Part shown: one piece after another, positions 10,548-48,639 of the stretch
How the letters are laid out: each line of letters begins with the position of its first letter
Position numbering within the stretch: position 1 is the first letter of the stretch
Assembly (NCBI GenBank): GCA_025964775.1
Contig: JAOPYE010000010.1
Span: 186,001-250,000 of the forward strand
From: Marmoricola sp.
GTDB lineage: Bacteria > Actinomycetota > Actinomycetes > Propionibacteriales > Nocardioidaceae
DNA length: 64,000 nt
Direction of reading: 5' to 3'
The notes under the pieces: model-generated
Database searches by the model: none
What the model was told of the DNA's origin: nothing
Seen by the model: only the letters and a program-made list of their open reading frames with translations
Program-made: the position numbers and the translations under genes

Positions 10548-10661
10548 CCGAGATCACCCGAGACATCCCCTGTACGGCTGTGTGGAACTACCAGCAGAAC
10601 TCCCGATGCACACGCTAGCCGTCAACACCGCCCAAGAACAGGCGTTTCGACATAGTCGGTA

Positions 10662-35149: not shown

Positions 35150-35238
35150 GATCGATTTTCAGGGTAGTTGTTGGACGTTGTTGGCAGTTGCTGTCGCCTC
35201 GTCCGGGCCGGATTCGAGGTGGTCGTGTGCGTGGCGGG

Positions 35239-37932
35239 ATGAAGTTCTACCGCGGCTCCGCAGCCGCTGCGCGCGCCTACGTCGAGGCCGATCACTCTCG
35301 GGCTGACGACTACTACCTGACCGAAGGCTCCGGCGTCGCCAGCCGCTTCGTCGTCGGTGTGAGGCACTTGGTGAGCCCGAATGTGAGCCAGGCTGCAGAC
35401 CTCGACGGCGAGACCTACGAGCAGTGGGTCACCGGGTACGACATCGACACCGGCCGAGCCAAGGGCCGGCTGCGAGACGACGGCAACGCGTTGCGGTTCG
35501 TCGAGGTCACTATCAACGGGCCAAAGACTTGGTCGCTCGCGGCAGCACTACATCCGGCGATCTCCTCGGCGTTGGATAGTGCCCAGGATCGCGCTGCGGA
35601 ACAGATCATCAGCTGGGTTGCTCAGCACGCGACCACGCGCGTGGGTCCGCGTGGCCGTCAGGTCCAGGTACCCGTCGAACAGATCGAGGCGGCTGCAATC
35701 CGGCACTACACCTCGCGCGCTGGTAACCCGCACCGACATCTGCATCTCCAGATCAACGCCAGAGTCTTCGCCGACAACGCATGGCGCGGTATCCACTCGG
35801 TGGGAATGCGGGACTCGCTGGAAGCGATCAACGGCATCGGCCATGCGGCGGTCGCGACCGACCTAGGCTTCCGTGCGGCGCTCGCCCAGCATGGGTTCAC
35901 TTTCGATCCAGCGACGGGCGAGATCGCCGAGCTCGCACCCTTCGCGGCTCGGTTCAGCGCTCGGTCGGCACAGATCGGCCGAAACGTCGACCGCTACGAG
36001 GCCGAGTGGCGTGCTGAGCATCCCGGTGAGGAGCCCGGACCGCGGCTACGGCAGGTATGGGATCGGCGGGCATGGTCGGAGGCTAGGCCGGACAAGGTCG
36101 TCCCGACCGACGGCGCGGCGATGGTCGCTGCGTGGAACGAGGAGTTGCGCCAGCTCGGCTTCCGTGGTCCGAGCGCGCAGGCATCCCTGTCGACACCCAC
36201 GATCGGTGGATTGGAACGTGACGCGGCCGCGGACCTGGTGTTGTCCCGACTGGGAGCGAAGCGGTCGGCGTGGAACTCAGCCGACATTCGTGGGCAGGTC
36301 GAGCAGTGGCTCGCACAGACCGGAATCGCCACTGAGGCTGCCGTGCGGGTCGAGTTGGCCGAGGACCTGACCGCTCGGGCGCTAGCGGCCAGCACTCCGC
36401 TCCTGGCTCGTGGCGATGTGCCAGAGCACATCCGCGCTCTCTCCTCTCCTCGAGTGATCGGAGTCGAAGACCGGATCGCACGGCTGCTGGGACTCCAGGC
36501 CTACATCGGCGGCGATCACGCCGCCCTCGACGCGAGGATTGCCCAGGGTCTTGACTCTGCACAACAGACGGCAGTCTCCGCACTTGCCGGGACGAAGTAT
36601 CTCCTGGTCGTCGAGGGCGCGGCCGGCGCCGGCAAGACGACCACACTGGCCGCGACGAAAGCCAAACTCGCGAAACAGGGCCGGCAGATGATGGTCGTGA
36701 CGCCGACGCTGAAGGCAGCCGAGGTCGCGGCCACAGAGATCACCGCGCCAGCGTTTTCAGCCGCCTGGCTGGCCCACCAGTGGGGCTGGCGCTGGGACGA
36801 CGACGGACACTGGACCTGTACCGGAGACCTCCCCACCGACCCTTCCGCGATGCTCACTCGCGGCGACCTGCTCGTCGTCGACGAGGCCGGGATGCTCGAT
36901 CAGGACACGGCTCGTGCCCTGTTGGAGATCGCACGAGGGTGTGAGGCATGGGTGGCGCTCCTGGGTGACCGCCACCAGCTCCCTGCTGTCGGCCGCGGCG
37001 GAGTCCTCGACCTTGCCGCGCAGCAGACCGGACCCGACGCGTCCGTCTCCCTCGACGTGGTGCACCGGTTCGCGGACCCGGCCTACGCAAAGCTGAGTGT
37101 CGCGATGCGCTCCGGCGAATCGGTCTTCGCCGAGCTGCTGGACCGGGGTCAGATCAGGCTGCACGCCAGCGAACCCGAACGTATCCAGGCACTAGCCACC
37201 GAGGCTGCCGATGCGTTCCTCGCGGGACACCACAGCAGGGCGCTGATAGCCGACAGTCGCGAGCAGGTCGCCGCCCTCAACGCTGCCATCAGAGATCGAT
37301 TGGTCACGGCCGGCCTGGTCGAGCACGACCGCGTCGTCGTGAACGAGACCGGGGAACGTCTCAGCGTCGGCGACCGCGTCGCCACTCGCCGAAACGACTG
37401 GCAGCTCGGTGTCGCGAACCGGCAGGCGTGGACCATCACCGACCTCAGCGATCAAGCGCTTACCCTTCGCAACGATCATGGGCTCACCCGCGAGGTCCCC
37501 AGCTGGTACGCCCTGGGCTGGGTCGAGCTCGCCTACGCGACGACCGTGTACGGCGCCCAGGGCGAAACCACGACGACCGGGCATCTGGTCATGGGCGAGA
37601 CCACCTCGGCCGCATCGGCGTACGTCGGCATGACCCGCGGCCGACACGACAATGTGGCCCATCTCGTCGCTGACAACGCCGAGCAGGCCCAGGCGACCTG
37701 GGAGGCAGCCTTCTCACGCGATCGCGCAGACCTCGGGGTCGCTCACGCCCGTCTCCAGGCCGTCGACGACATCGACCGCTACGGCCCCAACGCTCCCGCC
37801 CGAACTCGTGCCCAAGAGCGGGCCGGGCAGCTCCATCCACGGAACCAGCGGAAGCAGACGGAGCCCTCGCGAGCAAGCACTCCCGAACTGCCGCGACCGC
37901 CAAGGCGGGCTGGCTCGGGCATTCGCTTCTGA
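35239..37932 (+). CDS. MobF-family relaxase/helicase (TrwC/TraI-like)
   Basis: An 897-residue protein. The N-terminal relaxase domain has tandem catalytic tyrosines (DDYYL, Y25-Y26) and the HxH metal motif HRHLH (about residues 165-169) in GNPHRHLHLQIN. The C-terminal half is a RecD-like helicase with Walker A GAAGAGKTTT (about 458-467), Walker B LLVVDEAGMLD (about 541-551), LLGDRHQLPAVG and YVGMTRGRH. This single-protein nickase-helicase starts conjugative DNA transfer. No type IV secretion genes are in the window, so segment C is mobilisable rather than self-transmissible as far as seen. The start was set at the family MKFYRGS; the ribosome site is weak. Confidence 0.92.
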   Translation: MKFYRGSAAAARAYVEADHSRADDYYLTEGSGVASRFVVGVRHLVSPNVSQAADLDGETYEQWVTGYDIDTGRAKGRLRDDGNALRFVEVTINGPKTWSLAAALHPAISSALDSAQDRAAEQIISWVAQHATTRVGPRGRQVQVPVEQIEAAAIRHYTSRAGNPHRHLHLQINARVFADNAWRGIHSVGMRDSLEAINGIGHAAVATDLGFRAALAQHGFTFDPATGEIAELAPFAARFSARSAQIGRNVDRYEAEWRAEHPGEEPGPRLRQVWDRRAWSEARPDKVVPTDGAAMVAAWNEELRQLGFRGPSAQASLSTPTIGGLERDAAADLVLSRLGAKRSAWNSADIRGQVEQWLAQTGIATEAAVRVELAEDLTARALAASTPLLARGDVPEHIRALSSPRVIGVEDRIARLLGLQAYIGGDHAALDARIAQGLDSAQQTAVSALAGTKYLLVVEGAAGAGKTTTLAATKAKLAKQGRQMMVVTPTLKAAEVAATEITAPAFSAAWLAHQWGWRWDDDGHWTCTGDLPTDPSAMLTRGDLLVVDEAGMLDQDTARALLEIARGCEAWVALLGDRHQLPAVGRGGVLDLAAQQTGPDASVSLDVVHRFADPAYAKLSVAMRSGESVFAELLDRGQIRLHASEPERIQALATEAADAFLAGHHSRALIADSREQVAALNAAIRDRLVTAGLVEHDRVVVNETGERLSVGDRVATRRNDWQLGVANRQAWTITDLSDQALTLRNDHGLTREVPSWYALGWVELAYATTVYGAQGETTTTGHLVMGETTSAASAYVGMTRGRHDNVAHLVADNAEQAQATWEAAFSRDRADLGVAHARLQAVDDIDRYGPNAPARTRAQERAGQLHPRNQRKQTEPSRASTPELPRPPRRAGSGIRF

Positions 37933-38371: not shown

Positions 38372-39541
38372 ATGGGCTGGATATTGAAGGACCGTCAATC
38401 TTGGCGAGGCGCGTATCGCGACGAGAGCGGCAGGCAGCACACCAAGTCCTTCAAGCGACAGATTGACGCGAAGCGGTGGGTCGCCACCGAGGAGTCGAGG
38501 GTCGTGCGTGGCGACTGGATCGACCCTTCGGCTGGGAAGGTCACCTTCGCGACCTTCTACGCCGACTGGGTGCCCCGTCAGGTGTGGGTGTCGTCGACGC
38601 GGGAGAACGCAGACCTCGCTGTGGCCGGAGCGACCTTCAGTGACCTTCCGCTTCGGTCGATCCGACGCTCACACGTCGAGGCATGGGTGAAGCACATGAC
38701 TGCCACGCTTGCGTCGACCACGATCGACACCCGGTTCACGATCGTGCGGGGCGTCTTCCGTGCATCGGTCGCGGACCGCCTGATCGCCCGCGACCCGTCT
38801 GTCGGCGTCGTGCTGCCCCGAAAGCGCAAGGCCGAGGCAGCCATGAGCATCCCCACCAACACAGACGTAGCAAAGGTCCTGGACGCAGCTGAGCCGGAGA
38901 AGAGGCCGAAGTCACGACCCGGTTTCACGGCCTACGTCGCCCTGTGTGCCTTCGCCGGCCTACGCCGCGGCGAGGCGCTCGGCGTGCAGGTCGGTGACAT
39001 CGACTTCCTGGCCCGCACCCTTCGGGTCACCCGCCAGCTGCAACGAGCTAAGTCCGCCGACATTGAGGCGGACAAGGATCTCGTCGATGCGACCGCTGGG
39101 ATCACGGTCATGGTCCGGCCACCGAAGTACGAGTCAGAGCGCACGATCTACCTGCCCGACGAACTCGTCACGATTCTCTCTGAGCACGTCCGCCAGCACA
39201 CCCCAACAGGCGAGTCCTCCCGGTGGCTGTTCGATGAGGGCGGCAAACCTTGGCACGACAACCTCGTCGATTACCGCTGGCGGTCAACCCGCACCGACGC
39301 AGGGGTTTCGTACAAGCTCCACGAGCTTCGGCACTACTACGCCAGTGGACTCATCGCCGCCGGATGCGACGTTGTGACTGTCCAGCGGGCCATGGGCCAC
39401 ACCTCTGCAACGACCACGTTAAGTACGTACGCGCACCTGTGGCCCACGGTCGAGGACAAGACCAGAACAGCTGCATCCGAAATGGCGGCGACAGTTCTTG
39501 CGACGCGTCTGCCACGCAACAAGGCCAAAGTGGGCCTCTGA
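38372..39541 (+). CDS. Tyrosine site-specific integrase (intact)
   Basis: A 389-residue phage-type integrase. An N-terminal arm-binding domain (GAYRDESGRQHTKSFKR) is followed by a SAM-like core-binding domain and the catalytic domain with R198 (GLRRGEALG), K252, H317-x-x-R320 (LHELRHYYASG), H343 (MGHTSATTTL) and nucleophile Y353 (STYAHLW). All catalytic residues are present. The 3' end of the gene contains arm-site-like TGCGAC-N5-TGCCAC, and the gene ends 20 bp before att-like repeat R4. It is the only complete integrase of the island and could act on all the repeats. Confidence 0.95.
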   Translation: MGWILKDRQSWRGAYRDESGRQHTKSFKRQIDAKRWVATEESRVVRGDWIDPSAGKVTFATFYADWVPRQVWVSSTRENADLAVAGATFSDLPLRSIRRSHVEAWVKHMTATLASTTIDTRFTIVRGVFRASVADRLIARDPSVGVVLPRKRKAEAAMSIPTNTDVAKVLDAAEPEKRPKSRPGFTAYVALCAFAGLRRGEALGVQVGDIDFLARTLRVTRQLQRAKSADIEADKDLVDATAGITVMVRPPKYESERTIYLPDELVTILSEHVRQHTPTGESSRWLFDEGGKPWHDNLVDYRWRSTRTDAGVSYKLHELRHYYASGLIAAGCDVVTVQRAMGHTSATTTLSTYAHLWPTVEDKTRTAASEMAATVLATRLPRNKAKVGL

Positions 39542-39694
39542 ACTGCGCAAACGCACCAAATCCGTAGTACCACGGCTACCACGCTCAGCGAGTATTGCTG
39601 GCCGTTGTTGGCACTGTGTCCTGACCTGCTAAGACGCGCTGCGGTCGTTGGCCGCGATCGGTCACTGCTGGCAGTCCTGCCACATTCTTGCCAC
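39540..39694. repeat. att-like repeat R4
   Basis: A degenerate core TCCGTAGTACCACGG (39561-39575). GAACTGC begins at 39540 (-30 from CCACGG), GACCTGC at 39623 (+53) and TGCCAC-N5-TGCCAC at 39678-39694 (+108); the integrase 3' end provides TGCGAC-N5-TGCCAC at 39499-39515 (-71). R4 separates segments C and D. From 39695 to 39812 I see no gene. Confidence 0.75.
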
Positions 39695-39812: not shown

Positions 39813-40997
39813 CTACGAATCCTTGATCAACTCGCTGAACCTGTTGGTCAGGCTCTCTGGGTCATCGAGCTCGAGGTCGAGGTCTGCCTTGAGCGCGGTC
39901 CGCAAGTCCGGTAAGTCGGGTCCGGCGTACGCCGGCTGATCCATGAAGCTGGCAACCTCGCGGATCGCGGCATCCCACCACGTCTGAGTGCCACGCTCAC
40001 GGCGCTGCCCTTTGCGGTCGCTAAGCAAGTCCTGCCAAACCCGCAGCTCCCAACTATTCCGAGCTGCGTCGAGCGAGACATCGCCCCCGAGCAGCTCGCG
40101 GAGCCGGTGCTCCAGGTTCGCTGCTCGCTTGGATGTGTGCTCCCAGGTGTCCGTGGTGAAGTTCCACCAGACCTTCCGACGCAGCCGGAGGACTCGGAAG
40201 GCTAGGTTCTGCAGTGAGTCCTCTTGCAGTTCCTCGACAACCTCCCGCAGATCTCGGACCAGACGCTGGACGTGTTCGACCTCGGACTGGACCGAGTCAG
40301 CAGAGGCAGCAGCGGAGTCTGCCGAGGACGACGCGGACGACGCTGCGGCGGCAGCCTCCTCGGTCGTCCCGATCAATCGATGGATCGGCTCGGCAATGTG
40401 TTTCTCGATACCCTCTGCGATCTGATCAACCTGACTCCCCACGGCCCCAACTGCCGCCCGAAGGTCTTCGCTCGTTTGACGGAAGCGAGCAGCGAAACTA
40501 CCCGCCTCGCGGTCGAGATATATCCGCAGCAGCTCATCGTCCGTCAAGGCACGGGTCGACCGACCTTGCCGTGTTTGGCGGCGACCTTGGTCATCAAAGT
40601 GTGGTGGCATGCTGGGTCTCACCTCGACCCGAACGAACGGAGTAGCTTCGGCAACGCCTTCCTCCACGATGAAGACATCGACTGGGACAGGCCTCGTCTT
40701 GCTAGCCAAGTCCTGTATTCGGGACACCGTCCTGTCGAGCCCCTTCGGCAGTCCGAACGGCACGCCCGAGACCAGGCCGGTGGTCTTGTCCTCAACCTCA
40801 TCCACACCGACGAGCAGATGGGCAACATCGCGCTCTGGGTTGACGGCCACCCAGTTGGCAAGGGCAGCCAGGAGCCCCGCCGTGACGGCCTCGGCGTCCC
40901 GTTTGAACTCATACCGTCCCGACTCACCGAGCGCCAGCATGGCCTGTGCGGCCTTGCTGACCACCTGAAATCTCGATGGGTGAACCTGGTCCGTCAC
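39813..40997 (-). CDS. AlbA_2/Schlafen-like domain and coiled-coil protein
   Basis: A 394-residue protein. The N-terminus has ESGRYEFKRD and LLAALANWVAV, then HLLVGVDEVE, the hallmarks of the AlbA_2 (Schlafen-AlbA, putative ATP- or nucleic-acid-binding) domain, about residues 24-150. A helical region of heptads rich in Ala/Ser/Glu (about 170-265) predicts a coiled coil, and the C-terminal 130 residues are helical and charged without a known motif. Schlafen-type AlbA proteins occur in several defence loci. It is in segment D, transcribed away from the rest of the defence-like genes. Function is not established. Confidence 0.65.
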   Translation of the reverse strand: MTDQVHPSRFQVVSKAAQAMLALGESGRYEFKRDAEAVTAGLLAALANWVAVNPERDVAHLLVGVDEVEDKTTGLVSGVPFGLPKGLDRTVSRIQDLASKTRPVPVDVFIVEEGVAEATPFVRVEVRPSMPPHFDDQGRRQTRQGRSTRALTDDELLRIYLDREAGSFAARFRQTSEDLRAAVGAVGSQVDQIAEGIEKHIAEPIHRLIGTTEEAAAAASSASSSADSAAASADSVQSEVEHVQRLVRDLREVVEELQEDSLQNLAFRVLRLRRKVWWNFTTDTWEHTSKRAANLEHRLRELLGGDVSLDAARNSWELRVWQDLLSDRKGQRRERGTQTWWDAAIREVASFMDQPAYAGPDLPDLRTALKADLDLELDDPESLTNRFSELIKDS

Positions 40998-43104: not shown

Positions 43105-43120
43105 TCGAACATATGTTCGA
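43105..43120. promoter_or_regulatory. LexA-type SOS box
   Basis: TCGAACATATGTTCGA is a perfect 16-bp palindrome matching the actinobacterial LexA consensus TCGAAC-N4-GTTCGA. It lies 70 bp before the first gene of the four-gene segment D operon (start 43191) and 220 bp from the divergent Cys-rich gene. It is the only such site I found in the island. LexA binding would make the operon DNA-damage-inducible. Confidence 0.8.
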
Positions 43121-43190
43121 CAAATGAAGAACTTCGGGTCACCATAAGACTGGGTGACGCGGGACTCGAACAGCGAGAGGATCAACGCGT

Positions 43191-43706
43191 GTGGCGACGA
43201 GGGAGCAGGTGAAGATGGAAGCGGAGGTTCTCCGTCCCGGACCGGTCGTAGGCACAGGCCAGCGTGCGCTGGCCCTGCAGACCGCCACTTTGGCCACGCG
43301 TCTGAGCAGTTATGTATCCGTGGCGTCGGCTCTGTTCCACGGCCTCTCGCGAGAAGGCGTCGACCCCGAACGGCTCCAGGGCCAGCGCCGGCGGGCGCGC
43401 GAACTGGCCATGCTCATCCGGGAGATCGAGCATGCCGACGTAACGAGCTTGTACGAAACGAGCCAGCTGGTTCCCCGAAGGCTGTGGAGCGACGTGCGCG
43501 GAGCCTTGAACATTCCAGAGGACCTCGACGCGACCCTCTTGAAGCTCCTGAAGAAGATCGACGATCGGACGTTTGATACTGCCGAGATGGCTGCGCAAGC
43601 AGCCACTATGAAGCGCCTCGCGCAGCGCCTCCAAGAGGCTGGACGGGGCGAAATCAGCGCCGCGCTGGAAGACTCCCACGAGGTCCTGACAACACCAAGC
43701 GTGTAG
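43191..43706 (+). CDS. Helical protein, first gene of SOS-linked operon
   Basis: A 171-residue, largely alpha-helical, charged protein (LATRLSSYVSVASALFHGLS, LQGQRRRARELAMLIREIEH, LDATLLKLLKKIDDRTF). No membrane segment, no catalytic motif recognised. The GTG start at 43191 has an AGAGG about ten bases upstream. It is separated from the metallopeptidase-like gene by 76 bp that include a dyad (43731-43748), so it may be a separately tuned member, such as a sensor or an antitoxin-like inhibitor of the downstream genes; this is inference. Confidence 0.65.
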   Translation: MATREQVKMEAEVLRPGPVVGTGQRALALQTATLATRLSSYVSVASALFHGLSREGVDPERLQGQRRRARELAMLIREIEHADVTSLYETSQLVPRRLWSDVRGALNIPEDLDATLLKLLKKIDDRTFDTAEMAAQAATMKRLAQRLQEAGRGEISAALEDSHEVLTTPSV

Positions 43707-43730
43707 GTCCCACCATTTGGGCTGACCGCA

Positions 43731-43748
43731 GGCAACATTGTGGTTGCC
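43731..43748. promoter_or_regulatory. Inverted repeat GGCAAC-N6-GTTGCC
   Basis: GGCAAC (43731-43736) and GTTGCC (43743-43748) lie 35 bp before the metallopeptidase-like start, in the only sizeable gap inside the operon. It could be an operator for a secondary promoter or a mild hairpin attenuating the downstream genes. Confidence 0.4.
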
Positions 43749-43782
43749 AACCTGCTAGTCATCACACCTTGGGACCCCATAC

Positions 43783-45195
43783 ATGTTCGAGCAGCTCCTC
43801 GTGCTTTCCAGCGCGGCTGACGTGCGTGAGCGCTTCTTGCGCATGCTCGCCGGCCTCGATGAGGCGAGCGCTGCGGCCGACGCAGGCACGAGGACAGTGC
43901 TCCAGACCTACCGAGGTCGCGTCAGCGAACTCCTCGTCGAGCAGCAGGGAATCCTGGCTGATCACATCGAGGGCCTTCGAGCCGGGTTCGGCGACCAGCC
44001 CAGCGAGTGGCCTCCAGGCGAGCTCGGGGAGATGAGTGCAGCGACCGTCGCCATGTTCGACCTGCTGTCCATCCAGCACTACGAGGTGGCCACACACTTG
44101 CCAGGGCGATCGGCCGCCCGCGAAGACCTCCTGTACCTGCTCATGCGCTCGATGCGATTCTCGTTGATGAGTCGCGAACACACCCGACTCCTCAGCGTCC
44201 AGGAGTCGCGGATGCTGACATGGGAGGCGACGCGCTTCACTCAGCTACAAGCAGACGGCCCCAGCGCCGCGGCGATCGCCGTCCCCTGGTTGGAGACCCT
44301 CACCCCTCTACGTTGGCCCTTGGCAGTCCACGAGCTCGGCCACTACTTCCTGCCTGACGCGGCGCTTGTGTACCCGAACGTCCTCCGCATCGCCCAGGAC
44401 CACGGATGGCGCGAGGCCGACTTGACGAGCTTCAAGGAGATCGTCGCGGACGCGATCGCTCAAGGTGCACTCGGTGATGCGTACGCGTACGCGCTGGCTC
44501 GCGAGGGCTACCTGCTTTCGTACAAGACCCACCAGGGTGGGGGTGTCTCCGTGGCGGACCGCCTCCGGCTCCTCGGCGGCCCGATCGCCCTTATCGACAA
44601 CTTGCCGTCCGTCTGGCGTCTGGACGAACGCTCGCCTGTGCCTACTTCAGGGTCCAAGCCGCCCGCACCTCCCCCAGACCCGACGGAGGAGGACGAGCGC
44701 GCCAAGATGCGTGCCGAGGCGCTCAAGCTCGTCGGCGAGCCATCGACCAACGATCCCGAACGGGTTGCTGAGGCCCGCCAGTTGATATCCCGCGGTGAGC
44801 CACCGACCGCCGTATTGAGTTCGCGCGCTCGTAGTGTCGACGGTCTCATGGGTCTCGTCGAAGCGCTCGACGAAGCTCACCAGTCGCCGGTCTCGCGCCT
44901 TACGCCTGAGCAGGTTGGTGACCTTACTAACCTGGCCGTGCACCGCCCGCTAACTGACGGGGAGATCCTTGAGGCTGCCTGGCTGGAAGACTGTGAGCGC
45001 GATCCGACGCAGTTGTTGGACAGCCTGTGTGGCGCTCTGGACGACAAGACCATCCACGAGGCGATGCGCGACGTCGTCGAACGTGACACCTGGCTCGCTC
45101 GTGCGCTCCAGTCTGCCGCCGTTCACCGGTGGGTCGACGATGGCGAGCGCCTCGATGCACAGCAGCGCGTGGCCGTCGGTCAGGAGTTGGCATGA
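43783..45195 (+). CDS. HELGH zinc-metallopeptidase-like protein
   Basis: A 470-residue cytosolic protein. The zincin motif HELGH is at residues 183-187 (WPLAVHELGHYFLPD), with a likely third ligand E219 in FKEIVADAIAQGAL, 32 residues downstream, the gluzincin spacing, and D223. A helical N-terminal domain (1-170) and a charged, partly disordered segment (about 285-330, APPPDPTEEDERAK) followed by a helical C-terminus flank it. No signal peptide. Its stop overlaps the dCTP-deaminase-family start by ATGA, so the proteins are made in fixed ratio. Proteolysis of a host or phage target triggered by nucleotide signalling is plausible but unproven. Confidence 0.7.
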   Translation: MFEQLLVLSSAADVRERFLRMLAGLDEASAAADAGTRTVLQTYRGRVSELLVEQQGILADHIEGLRAGFGDQPSEWPPGELGEMSAATVAMFDLLSIQHYEVATHLPGRSAAREDLLYLLMRSMRFSLMSREHTRLLSVQESRMLTWEATRFTQLQADGPSAAAIAVPWLETLTPLRWPLAVHELGHYFLPDAALVYPNVLRIAQDHGWREADLTSFKEIVADAIAQGALGDAYAYALAREGYLLSYKTHQGGGVSVADRLRLLGGPIALIDNLPSVWRLDERSPVPTSGSKPPAPPPDPTEEDERAKMRAEALKLVGEPSTNDPERVAEARQLISRGEPPTAVLSSRARSVDGLMGLVEALDEAHQSPVSRLTPEQVGDLTNLAVHRPLTDGEILEAAWLEDCERDPTQLLDSLCGALDDKTIHEAMRDVVERDTWLARALQSAAVHRWVDDGERLDAQQRVAVGQELA

Positions 45196-46163
45196 CGACG
45201 ACCATGGGGCCGGTGGAGCCGGTGGAGCCGGCCGAGGACCCAGGGTTGGCAGAGGCTCAAGAACGGCTCGCGGCCGGCCACGACCACGCGCTGGAAAGCA
45301 GCCCGCTCGGCAGCCTTGCCTTGATACGGCGGATGCTGCTCCCACCTGAGCACCCGAGTCGGCTGGTCATCAGCCCGATCGTAAACGATCGCCAGATCGG
45401 GACGAGTAGTATCGACGTACGCTTGGGGACCGAGTGGGAGGCCATGCGTCCCTACCGGTTCGGCGCTATGGATCCGGGCGAGAACCCAGAGTCGGCTGCT
45501 GAACTGTTGAGGAACGGTGTCGAGGAGTTTCGGCTCACCGCCGGCCAGCGCCACGGGGTGGTGCTGCACCCCGATGAGTTACTGCTGGCACTGACCCTTG
45601 AGTTTATGCACCTACCCGGCGATCTGTGCGGCCGGCTCGAGGGGCGCAGTACCTGGGCTCGTCAGGGCCTCCAGGTACACGCGACGGCGGGGATGGTCGA
45701 TGCCGGTTTCAAGGGCTACCTCACTCTTGAACTACAGAACACGGGCCGCGTGCCACTCGTGTTGTACCCCGGCCTTCGAGTCGCCCAGATGGCCTTCCAC
45801 CCGGTGACGATGACTGCCTACTCCTACCAGGCGAAGCCTCACGCCGGATACAGCGGTCAGTCGCGTGCACGGTCGCGCTTCGTTTACGAGCCCGAGCACA
45901 GGTTCCGCTACGCATACATGGAGCACGAAAAGCAGGCCGAGCGTGAGCGCCTCGAGGCCCGGCATCAGATCGCGCCCGCGGGCGACGATGAACAGACTGC
46001 GGTGCTGGCTGAGTCAGCAAACTCACCTGCGGCAGGGGCGGTTCCACCCGAAGGGGGCAGGCAGGTGCTCCTAAGAGCGTCGGACCCGGGGGCCACCCCT
46101 GCAACTGACAGCGACCCTGGCGAGGGTCACAAGGACGGCGACAAGGCCGGCGATGTCGGATAG
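45192..46163 (+). CDS. dCTP deaminase/dUTPase-family protein with C-terminal extension
   Basis: A 323-residue protein of the trimeric dCTP-deaminase fold. SPIVNDRQIGTSSIDVRLG (61-79) is the family N-terminal strand; GRSTWARQGL (151-160) carries the conserved Ser and Arg; VDAGFKG (169-175) has the conserved Asp; LTLELQNTG (177-185) has the catalytic-type E180. The C-terminal HAGYSGQSRARSRF matches the nucleotide-phosphate lid. N-terminal 40 residues and C-terminal about 80 acidic residues are extensions absent from housekeeping Dcd. dCTP deaminases can protect bacteria by depleting dCTP. It is translationally coupled to the metallopeptidase-like gene upstream and overlaps the DAC-like gene by 11 bases. 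Confidence 0.8.
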   Translation: MTTTMGPVEPVEPAEDPGLAEAQERLAAGHDHALESSPLGSLALIRRMLLPPEHPSRLVISPIVNDRQIGTSSIDVRLGTEWEAMRPYRFGAMDPGENPESAAELLRNGVEEFRLTAGQRHGVVLHPDELLLALTLEFMHLPGDLCGRLEGRSTWARQGLQVHATAGMVDAGFKGYLTLELQNTGRVPLVLYPGLRVAQMAFHPVTMTAYSYQAKPHAGYSGQSRARSRFVYEPEHRFRYAYMEHEKQAERERLEARHQIAPAGDDEQTAVLAESANSPAAGAVPPEGGRQVLLRASDPGATPATDSDPGEGHKDGDKAGDVG

Positions 46164-47427
46164 GAACGACGTCGCTCAGCGGTTCGCCGAACGACTGGAA
46201 CATCGCCGTGAGCGCATGCGGGCAGAACTCGAGCAGGAGGACGTCCCCATCCTCGGGGGCGCGCGATACCCCGACAAACTCGCCGGCGAGGCGGTAGCTG
46301 TGGACGCGATGCTGCTGGAAGAGATCGTCTACGCGCGGCACGCGCCTGTCCATGAGGGATTGCGCCCACGGTACGGGTGTGTGCTTGTCGCGGACCTGGG
46401 TGAACTTGGCGCCGATGAGAAGTCGGCCCTACGCGAGATCGTCGATCACGATGTGTGGAGTATGCGTCCAATGGTGGACGGCTCCTCGACGATGCTGGTG
46501 CGCGACCTGACCGGCGGTCTCGGGATCATCCCCGTCGAGGTCGAGGACGAGTTGGCACTCGTCGACTTCCTGTCCCGAATGCGAGGTGTCTCCGTTCAAC
46601 GGCTCGCCGATGGGCGGCTCCGCCTCGGCACTCGCGCGGGCATCGCGTTGAACGACGGCGGCGACTGGTCGCTCCGCCCGGCGACGGGATCGGTCATCCG
46701 CAGCCTGACAGGCGAGCTTGCACTGCCCGATGGCTCGGCCTCGCGATTGGAGCGGATGCGCGAGATCGGGCGTCTGCTCGAGCTCTGCTACCACGGCCTT
46801 AGCCCCAACGGGATCGGCGCGACGATTATCGTCAACCTGAACGGAGAGGCTGCAGACCTGTACGGGGGAATCTCGGACAAGGGCGCTGTGCCAGCAATGG
46901 CATTGAACGTCTTTCGACGTGAGGACCAGGTCTTGCTGCGGAACATGCTCGCCTACGAGGACGGAGCGTGTCTGGTCGATGCCGATGGCGGGCTGGCGCA
47001 CTATGCCTCAAAGCTCAAGTTCAGCGACAAAGCCGTCGACGTAGCTTCCGAACACGGCGGGTCTCGACACACGTCAGCCAAGCGGTTCAGCTTCGACCAC
47101 CCGGGGGCGCTCGCAGTGGTCGTCTCCGCCGACGGACCCATCACGCTGTTCTGCGGCGGCAGTGCGCTGGCCCGCATCGACACCTCGTCTGCACGCCCTT
47201 CCTGGCTGTCGACGTCGCCCGCGGACGTCCGAATGCGCGTTGAGAACGCCAACGAGGCGGTGATTTGCGCACGGTGCGGCACCTCGTATCGGGTCTCCCT
47301 GGTTCTCGACGAAGAAACGGGTACCAGGATCGAGGTGACATGTGTGGTCTGCAACGAGGTCGTCTTTTCCCGGGATGGAGTACTGGACTGCAGGCCCCGG
47401 GTCGTGCGTCCCTGGGAGGAAGAGTGA
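46153..47427 (+). CDS. DAC (DisA/CdaA-like) nucleotide domain protein with zinc ribbon
   Basis: A 424-residue protein. An N-terminal domain (1-200) of unknown fold is followed by a DAC-like domain (about 215-345): GIGATIIVNLNGEA, then EDGACLVDADGGL with the DGA motif (270-272), then GGSRHTSAKRF with RH (305-306), then GALAVVVSADGPITLFCGG, corresponding to DGA, GTRHRAA and VVSEE of diadenylate cyclases. The third Arg of RHR is Thr, so synthase activity is uncertain and a sensor role is possible. The C-terminus is a zinc ribbon (C372-x2-C375 and C397-x2-C400). It is the last gene of the operon and ends ten bases before the truncated integrase. Confidence 0.7.
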   Translation: MSDRNDVAQRFAERLEHRRERMRAELEQEDVPILGGARYPDKLAGEAVAVDAMLLEEIVYARHAPVHEGLRPRYGCVLVADLGELGADEKSALREIVDHDVWSMRPMVDGSSTMLVRDLTGGLGIIPVEVEDELALVDFLSRMRGVSVQRLADGRLRLGTRAGIALNDGGDWSLRPATGSVIRSLTGELALPDGSASRLERMREIGRLLELCYHGLSPNGIGATIIVNLNGEAADLYGGISDKGAVPAMALNVFRREDQVLLRNMLAYEDGACLVDADGGLAHYASKLKFSDKAVDVASEHGGSRHTSAKRFSFDHPGALAVVVSADGPITLFCGGSALARIDTSSARPSWLSTSPADVRMRVENANEAVICARCGTSYRVSLVLDEETGTRIEVTCVVCNEVVFSRDGVLDCRPRVVRPWEEE

Positions 47428-47436
47428 GCATCGCAC

Positions 47437-47676
47437 GCTGTACTGGAGCTGGCGGCACTAACTCCACGAGCTTCGGCACTACTACGCCAGTGGACTGATC
47501 GCGGCCGGATGCGACGTCGTGACAGTCCAACGGCCATGGGCCACGCATCGGCTACAACCACGCTGAACACGTACGCGCACCTATGGCCCAAGGTCGAGGA
47601 CAAGACGAGAGCAGCCGCGTTGGAAATGGCGGCGGCAGTTCTTGCCACGCGTCTGCCACGCGTCCGGGCCGACTAG
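47437..47676 (+). pseudogene. Tyrosine integrase remnant (truncated, frameshifted)
   Basis: Closely similar to the end of the intact integrase (39328-39541), continuing LHELRHYYASGLIAA to a TAG at 47674-47676 before R5. One G is missing near 47533 (CAACGG-CCATGGG compared with CAGCGGGCCATGGG), shifting the frame, and about 330 codons are gone at the 5' side, with a small deletion after TGGCGG. His/Arg, GH and Tyr codons survive across the two frames. It marks the right end of segment D. Confidence 0.88.
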
Positions 47677-47718
47677 GCCTCTGACCTGCACAAACGTGTC
47701 GACTCAGTAGTACCAGGG
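47643..47718. repeat. att-like repeat R5 (right boundary at menB 3' end)
   Basis: The core CTCAGTAGTACCAGGG (47703-47718) covers the menB stop and last codons (Pro-Trp-Tyr-Tyr-stop). TGCCAC-N5-TGCCAC is at 47643-47659 (-70) inside the integrase remnant and GACCTGC at 47683 (-30). On the menB side neither the +59 nor the +115 element occurs, so this is the outer right junction with the chromosome. Confidence 0.85.
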
Positions 47719-48639
47719 ATACGGCGACCAGTCCGGGTCGCGCTTCTCCAGGAACTGGTCGCGCCCTTCCTGGGCCTCGTCGGTCATGTACGCCAGCCGG
47801 GTGGTCTCACCGGCGAAGAGCTGCTGGCCGACCAGGCCGTCGTCGATGAGGTTGAACGAGTACTTGAGCATCCGCTGGGCCGTCGGGCTCTTGCCGTTGA
47901 TGACCCGGCCCCACTCGAGGCCGGTCTTCTCCAGCTCGGCGTGCGGGACCGCTCGGTTGACCGTGCCCATCCGGACGCCGTCGTCGGCCGAGTACTCGGC
48001 GCCCAGGAAGAAGATCTCGCGGGCGATCTTCTGACCGACCTGGCGTGCCAGGTAGGCCGATCCGAAACCCCCGTCGAACGAACCCACGTCGGCGTCGGTC
48101 TGCTTGAAGCGCCCGTGCTCGGCGCTCGCCAGGGTCAGGTCGCTGACCACGTGCAGCGAGTGGCCGCCTCCAGCCGCCCAGCCGTTGACCAGGCTGATCA
48201 CGACCTTCGGCATGAAGCGGATGATGCGCTGGCACTCGAGGATGTGCAGCCGTGCCATCTTCGCCTTGTCGATCGGGTTGGGGGGCGCTCCCGCGTCGAC
48301 ATGACCGTCGAGCTCGTACTGGTACCCGGCCTTGCCGCGGATGCGCTGGTCGCCTCCGGTGCAGAACGCGTGCTTGCCGTTCTTCACGCTGGGACCGTTG
48401 CCGGTGAGCAGGACACAGCCCACGTCGCCCCAGGTGCGCGCGTGCTCCAGGGCGCGCAGCAGCTCGTCGACGGTGTGCGGCCTGAAGGCGTTGAGCACGT
48501 CGGGCCGGTCGAACGCGATCCGGACCGTGCCGTGCGCTTTCGCACGGTGGTACGTCAGGTCGGTCAGGTCCTCGAACCCGCCGACGTCGTCCCAGTCGGC
48601 CGGGTCGAAGATGTCCGAGACTCCGTCGAGTGCGCTCAT
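47704..48639 (-). CDS. menB: 1,4-dihydroxy-2-naphthoyl-CoA synthase
   Basis: A 311-residue crotonase-fold enzyme. The oxyanion-hole segments are KHAFCTGGDQRIRG and NGWAAGGGHSLHVVSDLTLA, with the MenB-specific QTDADVGSFDGGFGSAYLAR and C-terminal FLEKRDPDWSPYPWYY. It closes the second ring of menaquinone from o-succinylbenzoyl-CoA. The gene is intact, but its 3' end is the integration site used by the island elements: the att core spans the last codons and stop, and is restored by each insertion. It is divergent from a deazaflavin-type reductase gene. Confidence 0.95.
   Translation of the reverse strand: MSALDGVSDIFDPADWDDVGGFEDLTDLTYHRAKAHGTVRIAFDRPDVLNAFRPHTVDELLRALEHARTWGDVGCVLLTGNGPSVKNGKHAFCTGGDQRIRGKAGYQYELDGHVDAGAPPNPIDKAKMARLHILECQRIIRFMPKVVISLVNGWAAGGGHSLHVVSDLTLASAEHGRFKQTDADVGSFDGGFGSAYLARQVGQKIAREIFFLGAEYSADDGVRMGTVNRAVPHAELEKTGLEWGRVINGKSPTAQRMLKYSFNLIDDGLVGQQLFAGETTRLAYMTDEAQEGRDQFLEKRDPDWSPYPWYY

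Follow-up and report, generated by a model that had tools for sequence, protein, structure and literature searches.

Phage defence that acts on the deoxynucleotide pool provides the closest described counterparts of the locus analyzed here. Tal et al. in 2022 reportedly described defence by single-gene dCTP deaminases and dGTPases that target deoxynucleoside triphosphates (dNTPs). The Clover system combines the dNTPase CloA with the nucleotide signal of CloB (PMC12265719). We analyzed a four-gene operon in a 64,000-nucleotide stretch of the Marmoricola sp. genome (contig JAOPYE010000010.1, positions 186,001 to 250,000; hereafter the window), the products of which, P1 to P4, are a small helical protein, a putative zincin, a protein with the dCTP-deaminase (DCD) fold and a protein with a DAC domain. 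Comparison across genomes suggests that P1, P2 and P3 together represent a divergent version of a widespread three-gene module, coding for a small helical protein, an M48-like zinc metallopeptidase and a DCD-fold protein. Like the defence of Tal et al., the module has an accessory DCD-fold protein on mobile DNA, but here a zincin and a small helical protein accompany it. The likeness to Clover is a possible analogy in working, with a dNTP-handling protein beside a gene that possibly makes a regulatory nucleotide; unlike Clover, P1 to P4 have no HD dNTPase or Pol-beta-type nucleotidyltransferase (Pfam, E up to 1), and feature DCD and DAC folds plus a zincin instead. We found no description of the module in PADLOC, NCBIfam, Pfam, PHROGs (which hold only families of unknown function for it) or the part of the literature that could be searched; within that coverage, the statement of an earlier sequence-only reading of this DNA that no named system has this gene set stands.

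All four genes lie on the plus strand and were confirmed as open reading frames (ORFs) spanning 43191-47427. P1 (171 amino acids (aa), GTG start) occupies 43191-43706; P2, the zincin (470 aa), 43783-45195; P3, the DCD-fold protein (323 aa from the ATG at 45192), 45192-46163; and P4 (424 aa), with a DACNK sensor domain and a DAC domain recognized by Pfam and a C-terminal zinc ribbon, 46153-47427. The last three genes had been described as overlapping, and indeed P2 and P3 share 4 nucleotides (nt; ATGA) and P3 and P4 share 11 nt, making translational coupling likely; P1 stands apart, with a gap of 76 nt before P2. None of the four proteins matched any PADLOC 2.0.0 family at E up to 1, neither P1 nor P2 matched a Pfam or NCBIfam model above its cut-off, and no CBASS CD-NTase or Cap effector was matched in P1-P4 (Pfam and PADLOC, E up to 1). 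The host genome codes for a second DCD gene (163.7 bits, 194-aa frame) and a second DAC gene (94.7 bits, 397-aa frame, probably DisA), each scoring better than its counterpart in the operon, so that P3 and P4 are accessory copies.

The recurrence of the first three genes is the central result. A plasmid search with P3 led to a Bradyrhizobium quebecense plasmid on which genes for a 145-aa protein, a 462-aa HEVGH protein and a DCD follow one another in the same order, and from there the trio was followed to Shinella, Rhizobium, Agrobacterium, Bradyrhizobium japonicum, Emticicia, and plasmids of E. coli and Salmonella. Eight of 5426 E. coli genomes contain it, in every case on a plasmid of 90-109 kb and never on a chromosome, and the small gene and zincin of this version match phage families (PHROGs) of unknown function over their full length. 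The neighbours of the E. coli trio, such as Ref and Icd-like genes, point to P1-like phage-plasmids (P1 here being the phage). A zincin profile (alignment A3) run over 84,980 species genomes returned 81 candidate stretches, 54 of which were confirmed as loci of the module. The DCD gene lies immediately downstream of the zincin in all 54, and in 48 of them the nearest start codon is no more than 20 nt away from the zincin stop. A homologous gene of about 100 aa precedes the zincin in 52 (47 by BLAST and five more by profile); in the remaining two, the locus is truncated by a contig end. By record titles, these loci come from alpha-, beta- and gammaproteobacteria, Geobacter and many Bacteroidota. 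Because the patterns used in the scan are biased towards one subfamily, the module may in truth be more widely spread. The sequence-only reading had treated the four genes as one unit; recurrence bears this out for the small gene, zincin and DCD (52 to 54 of 54 loci) and not for the DAC gene, as no relative of P4 was found at the other loci examined.

The bridge from these loci to the window is provided by gene fusions. Among 396 genomes of the window's phylum (Actinomycetota), a broad zincin profile that includes P2 (A5) recovered the host genome and two more, and both of the latter encode the zincin and DCD as one protein, of 683 aa in locus L100 and 643 aa in locus L101, with an ORF of 162 or 170 aa in front of each fusion gene. 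P2 is 31% identical to the zincin half of L100 over 474 columns (E 6e-41) and P3 59% identical to its DCD half over 218 columns (E 2e-76), and the DCD half of L101 fits the DCD profile of the other loci (1e-43). Such natural zincin-DCD fusions argue independently for a joint function of the two proteins. Together with the 54 syntenic loci they place P2 and P3 in one system, and from these sequence comparisons the zincin and DCD are almost certainly linked as a unit.

Several stretches depart from the complete trio. On one Salmonella plasmid (L039), zincin and DCD pieces lie side by side in what is not a whole trio and looks decayed. On a viral contig (L099, 442-2563), the small gene is followed by a zincin whose first part gives way to phage terminase-type sequence, with no DCD found; we read it as an interrupted copy or an insertion point, while at face value it is a zincin without a DCD, and it is not among the 54. 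In L048:7023-7638 and L053:7067-7680 the neighbouring zincin frame is open, but the DCD gene falls into two overlapping ORFs and is thus probably frameshifted. Profile searches for a zincin near DCD matches in Azospirillum (L026), Nonomuraea (L028), an E. coli plasmid (L029), Streptomyces (L033) and Halobaculum (L034) returned none in the fetched stretches. The E. coli zincin had no match in phage records, profiles A6 and A7 gave candidates in viral contigs with none confirmed, and profile A7, applied to 66 genomes from the class to which genome G484 belongs, found only G484 itself.

P3 matches the Pfam DCD model (PF22769) at 114.8 bits against a cut-off of 27 (4.8e-33) and the NCBIfam model dCTP_deam (TIGR02274) at 128.8 bits against 92.8. 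Among proteins of solved structure, E. coli Dcd (1xs1) is the best relative of P3, and in alignment with it E180, R157 and S153 of P3 are the equivalents of E138, R115 and S111. P3 carries N- and C-terminal extensions around the DCD fold; the earlier description of a dCTP-deaminase-fold protein with a catalytic-type E180 and long extensions was thus accurate. The base-binding HxTA loop is intact (VHATAG) and the D128 equivalent is kept, as they also are in L100. P3 shares with dCTP deaminases the profile match, the RSxxxR motif, the catalytic glutamate and the HxTA loop, but differs from them in being extended at both ends, in being operonic with a zincin or, in L100 and L101, fused to one, and in the replacement of K178, which is G in P3 and A in L100 compared to K in all 59 readable sequences among 61 module relatives. 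PADLOC had no matching model for the four DCD proteins compared with it (P3, L027, L030 and L031), and a P3-specific DNA pattern found no match in viral contigs.

The DCDs of the wider module depart from dCTP deaminases in a different manner. Across 61 loci of the type not seen in the window (the 54 scan loci plus L030, L031, L035, L036, L037, L038 and L040, some of them near-identical), the residues equivalent to E. coli T123-A124-H125 are deleted in all 61 and D128 is replaced by Q in 57. S111 is kept in 61, R115 in 60, E138 in 60 (one gap) and K178 in 59 (two gaps), so that the E180-type glutamate, the conservation of which the earlier reading had proposed to check, is kept across these relatives. 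The DCD of the L101 fusion lacks the same three loop residues and that of L027 lacks one of them. In Dcd structures, the T123-A124-H125 region belongs to the base-binding loop, and the residues kept here form the phosphate and catalytic site. Compared with a dCTP deaminase, a sensor is the better fit for a retained nucleotide site whose base pocket has been rebuilt, and so is an enzyme of new specificity.

These data bear on an alternative in which the DCD protein is itself the effector, deaminating dCTP or a related dNTP on infection and thereby starving the phage, with the zincin activating or braking it through removal of an inhibitor such as the small protein. Consistent with this, P3 keeps the loop and the R115 and E138 equivalents, dCTP deaminases are reported to act in phage defence, and the better-scoring DCD elsewhere in the host marks P3 as an accessory copy. 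However, the deletion of the base-binding loop at all 61 loci of the other type is unsuited to a dCTP deaminase, the L101 fusion has lost the loop too, the L027 DCD has lost one of its residues, and P3 itself has G for K178. We regard an effector DCD as somewhat unlikely, and put it no lower because P3 and L100 retain VHATAG and D128.

In M48-type peptidases the motifs run in the order HExxH, ExxAD and THPxxxxR. P2 has its HELGH at 183-187, and H183, E184, L185, G186, H187, E219, D223, H250 and R260 are identical in all 51 aligned sequences, namely P2 and 50 of the 54 scan zincins (omitted were L045, which a contig end truncates, and the short L067, L085 and L091); the HELGH and E219 by which P2 had first been called a zincin are therefore conserved. 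Within the THPxxxxR region P2 keeps H250 and R260 and has Q251 where the 50 other aligned members all have proline. The M48 model (PF01435) is matched by 26 of the 51 zincins at E up to 0.1 (best 2e-5) and another zincin domain family, PF07737, by 10 (best 6e-5). The module zincins resemble M48 and other zincins in having the three motifs in order, the third being altered in P2, but unlike M48 they are about 350-470 aa long and sit in a fixed operon, and P2 itself matches neither M48 nor any other Pfam model. The zincin fold of P2 is a candidate one: its predicted model matches no zincin convincingly, the best VIA-align rows (Z up to 6.8) being helical proteins and three entries of one zincin scoring Z 3.2-3.7.

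A relative of the zincin was also seen in a different setting. On a Sinorhizobium terangae plasmid (L032, 5674-7062), a 462-aa HEVGH zincin relative occurs without a DCD; it follows directly on genes for a large ATP-binding protein and a CHAT-domain protein, and matches the PADLOC candidate-defence family 'peptidase_U41' at 4.4e-11. Zincins of this kind may serve other sensors.

The kept catalytic residues together with the rebuilt base pocket point to the DCD as a nucleotide sensor and the protease as the effector. The DCD protein would bind a deoxynucleotide whose level changes in phage infection or DNA damage and, by contact or through fusion, would switch on the peptidase; the activated peptidase would then cleave a host or phage protein, so that growth or replication stops. 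The small helical protein would be a partner or inhibitor. Also speaking for this view are the mobile and defence-type surroundings described below, the SOS-type box, the ribonucleotide reductase gene immediately upstream at two loci and the PADLOC match of L032. We favour this mechanism as the best of several, with somewhat less than even confidence.

P1 is the weakest of the four gene calls, based on its position, its size and one short motif, QLVPRRLW in P1 and QLIPVRVW in the small gene of the fusion locus L100. Homology between P1 and the roughly 100-aa small-gene family of the other loci is not detectable, and P1 would be the place-equivalent of the module's small gene. The small protein of that family is predicted to form a compact four-helix structure (pLDDT 88; 43 of 46 listed sequences used), for which nothing in the PDB was found below E 1 (best E 1.4); the sole antitoxin among its rows, an epsilon chain at E 6.3, is noise. 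Such a helical partner in front of the zincin, together with carriage on plasmids, would suit a toxin-antitoxin or addiction device of a mobile element, in which the zincin is the toxin, the small protein the antitoxin, and the DCD and DAC proteins regulators. Yet a conserved nucleotide-enzyme fold is unusual in such modules and the model of the small protein has no significant structural match, and we consider an addiction device very improbable.

The genomic neighbourhoods of the module bear on its role. It is carried on conjugative plasmids and on plasmids resembling P1-type phage-plasmids. Type I restriction genes lie beside it in L038 and L041, and SIR2 and VapC in L036; in three Rhizobiaceae plasmids (L031, L036 and L040) the trio directly follows a multiubiquitin/ThiF/DUF6527 cassette, and DUF6527 also precedes it in L043 (5178-5615). 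The 98 nearest flanking ORFs scanned at the 54 loci included ThiF five times, DUF6527 five times and M78 six times, in a raw tally without a control. From this context, a stress or defence function is likely.

P4 scores just above the Pfam cut-offs of 27 bits for both DAC (30.4 bits, 3.2e-7) and DACNK (29.3 bits, 8.4e-7). It has DGACL at 270-274 (DGA 270-272), DGAhh being the diadenylate cyclase motif as defined in PMC7288161. In place of GxRHRxA it has GSRHTSA, the change of RHR to RHT being shared by five of ten aligned relatives, and in place of (V/I)SEE it has VSAD; none of the ten has SEE and nine have SE. Over the DACNK and DAC domains (PF21753 and PF02457) P4 is 27-33% identical to these ten proteins from other genomes of the phylum, but unlike them it has a ribbon (C372, C375, C397 and C400), has SAD where nine have SE(D/S) and L018 has SRD, and lies in an operon with a zincin and a DCD. 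The DisA/CdaA-like domain with DGA and RH motifs and the zinc ribbon described earlier are thus present, with DAC above cut-off. Nucleotide binding by P4 is likely, and P4 is a putative cyclase.

The DAC gene appears to be an add-on to the window operon, outside the recurring unit. DACNK occurs in 8 of the 396 phylum genomes, the host included. No relative of the zincin, DCD or small gene was found near any of 11 other DACNK loci, in fetched stretches of 11-18 kb (L024, left out of the P4 alignment, is counted among the 11). Conversely, no relative of P4 was found near the 54 scan loci, seven further trio loci, L027, L100, L101 or L032, in a search whose profile was built from P4 and DACNK-DAC proteins and could miss an unrelated DAC; the zincin-DCD pair is flanked by 3 kb or more on either side in 43 of the 54 loci, and in the others a distant extra gene could be missed. 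P4 searched against plasmids and viral contigs returned nothing. Two weak further matches among 391 genomes of the order (E 2e-4 and 9e-4), with no DAC, DCD or zincin nearby, were judged to be chance. The idea that the DAC protein senses, with deaminase and peptidase as effectors, hence finds no comparative support. Within the sensor-protease mechanism, the DAC domain of P4 might instead make or read a c-di-AMP-like signal that tunes the zincin-DCD pair as a second nucleotide arm, much as the CloB signal tunes the dNTPase in Clover.

The operon is preceded by an exact LexA/SOS-box-like palindrome, TCGAAC-N4-GTTCGA (TCGAACATATGTTCGA, 43105-43120). A gap of 70 nt separates this box from P1, and it overlaps a promoter-like pair. 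The exact box is found at 10 places in the genome versus 2 for a reversed control, and two of the 10 (C29 and C35) are probably one duplicated stretch. Of eight other boxes that were examined, three stand in front of a DUF6504 gene, a 2OG-Fe(II) oxygenase gene (presumably AlkB-like) and a TetR-type gene, respectively; the remainder lie inside or beside genes of unclear kind. In the L101 fusion operon an exact box lies 56 nt upstream of the small gene, and across 58 stretches (the 54 loci of the other type plus four more) GAAC-N4-GTTC was found before the module only in L101; one Bradyrhizobium stretch has an alpha-type box match that is near chance. We predict that the window operon is LexA-repressed, in which case damage or phage attack would induce it.

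The operon lies in an 8.1-kb segment flanked by att-like repeats at 39538-39583 on the left (76%) and 47681-47726 on the right (89%), the right copy overlapping the 3' end of an enoyl-CoA hydratase family gene (47704-48639, minus strand; Pfam ECH_1, 8.3e-47), called menB in the earlier reading and the apparent insertion target. This repeat family, D3, corresponds to the end of the menB-type gene and has further copies at 10640 (65%) and 32509 (reference). Between the operon and the right repeat, a tyrosine-integrase 3'-end remnant (47457-47670, plus strand) matches the 3' part of an intact integrase at 91% (77 nt) and 83% (139 nt). The earlier placement of the operon in a menB-inserted element between an SOS box and a truncated integrase is thus upheld. 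An intact tyrosine integrase ORF (38372-39541, Pfam scan) and a TrwC-type relaxase-helicase (35188-37932) in the window would represent a conjugative or mobilisable element beside the operon segment, and with the four copies of the menB end between 9000 and 48700 they suggest serial integration, with an array of elements. Separately, there is a 153-nt repeat (copies at 10654, 12312 and 32523) that also overlaps this menB-type gene end, and a 394-aa protein in the att-flanked segment (39813-40997, minus strand) has weak matches to Schlafen AlbA_2 (E 0.0043, below cut-off) and ZorA (E 0.0016).

The boxes also admit a DNA-damage or dNTP-pool housekeeping device, induced through LexA, that trims dNTP pools or degrades a protein of replication or nucleotide metabolism. 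Exact SOS-type boxes before both the window operon and the L101 fusion operon are in line with it, as are ordinary housekeeping proteins among the flanking genes and the genes upstream of L076 and L094 (Adhaeribacter and Hymenobacter), where the large chain of ribonucleotide reductase, with an ATP-cone, directly precedes the small gene, zincin and DCD (L076:2998-5388; L094:2994-5372). On the other side, the distribution is patchy, with P2 turning up in a single genome among 197 relatives and in a single one among 394 of the class, the host's own both times (P2 searched against plasmids and viral contigs returned nothing), and the module is carried on phage-plasmid-like and conjugative plasmids and on an att-flanked segment. 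We therefore hold a housekeeping role to be unlikely.

Several observations weigh against a defence module in which a DCD sensor controls a protease effector. First, in the P3/L100 branch deamination is possible, and with VHATAG and D128 kept there, the deaminase could be active and itself the effector. Second, the direct link between P2 and the proteobacterial and Bacteroidota zincin profile is weak (hhalign probability 21%), such that the connection would depend on the fusions, the gene order and common motifs; the predicted P2 model is poor (mean pLDDT 60) and gave no Foldseek match below E 1. Third, the neighbour scan covered 98 of 190 chosen flanking ORFs with no control set scanned, for which reason we claim no enrichment, and many flanking proteins are of ordinary housekeeping kinds. 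Fourth, a box with up to one mismatch is expected 0.29 times per window and occurs in 26 of 100 shuffles, which is not far from chance for 64 kb, and the L100 operon has no close box match before it. Finally, the coupling of P4 to the zincin-DCD pair is seen in one operon only.

With these points taken into account, it is possible, though the balance leans against it, that the module represents a new class of immunity present in at least three phyla, in which a zinc protease is gated by a DCD fold repurposed as a deoxynucleotide sensor, the version in the window being SOS-induced and equipped with a DAC-type cyclic-nucleotide arm. To our knowledge, a protease effector controlled by the dNTP pool would be the first of its kind. 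The comparisons reveal that genes annotated only as 'dcd: dCTP deaminase' and 'hypothetical protein' on rhizobial, enterobacterial and Bacteroidota plasmids form one conserved unit, for which the fusions, the loop deletion and the SOS-type box offer direct and cheap ways of testing. If it is a defence system, it would couple the sensing of nucleotide pools to proteolysis, and the window operon would link the zincin-DCD unit to DAC-type nucleotide signalling.

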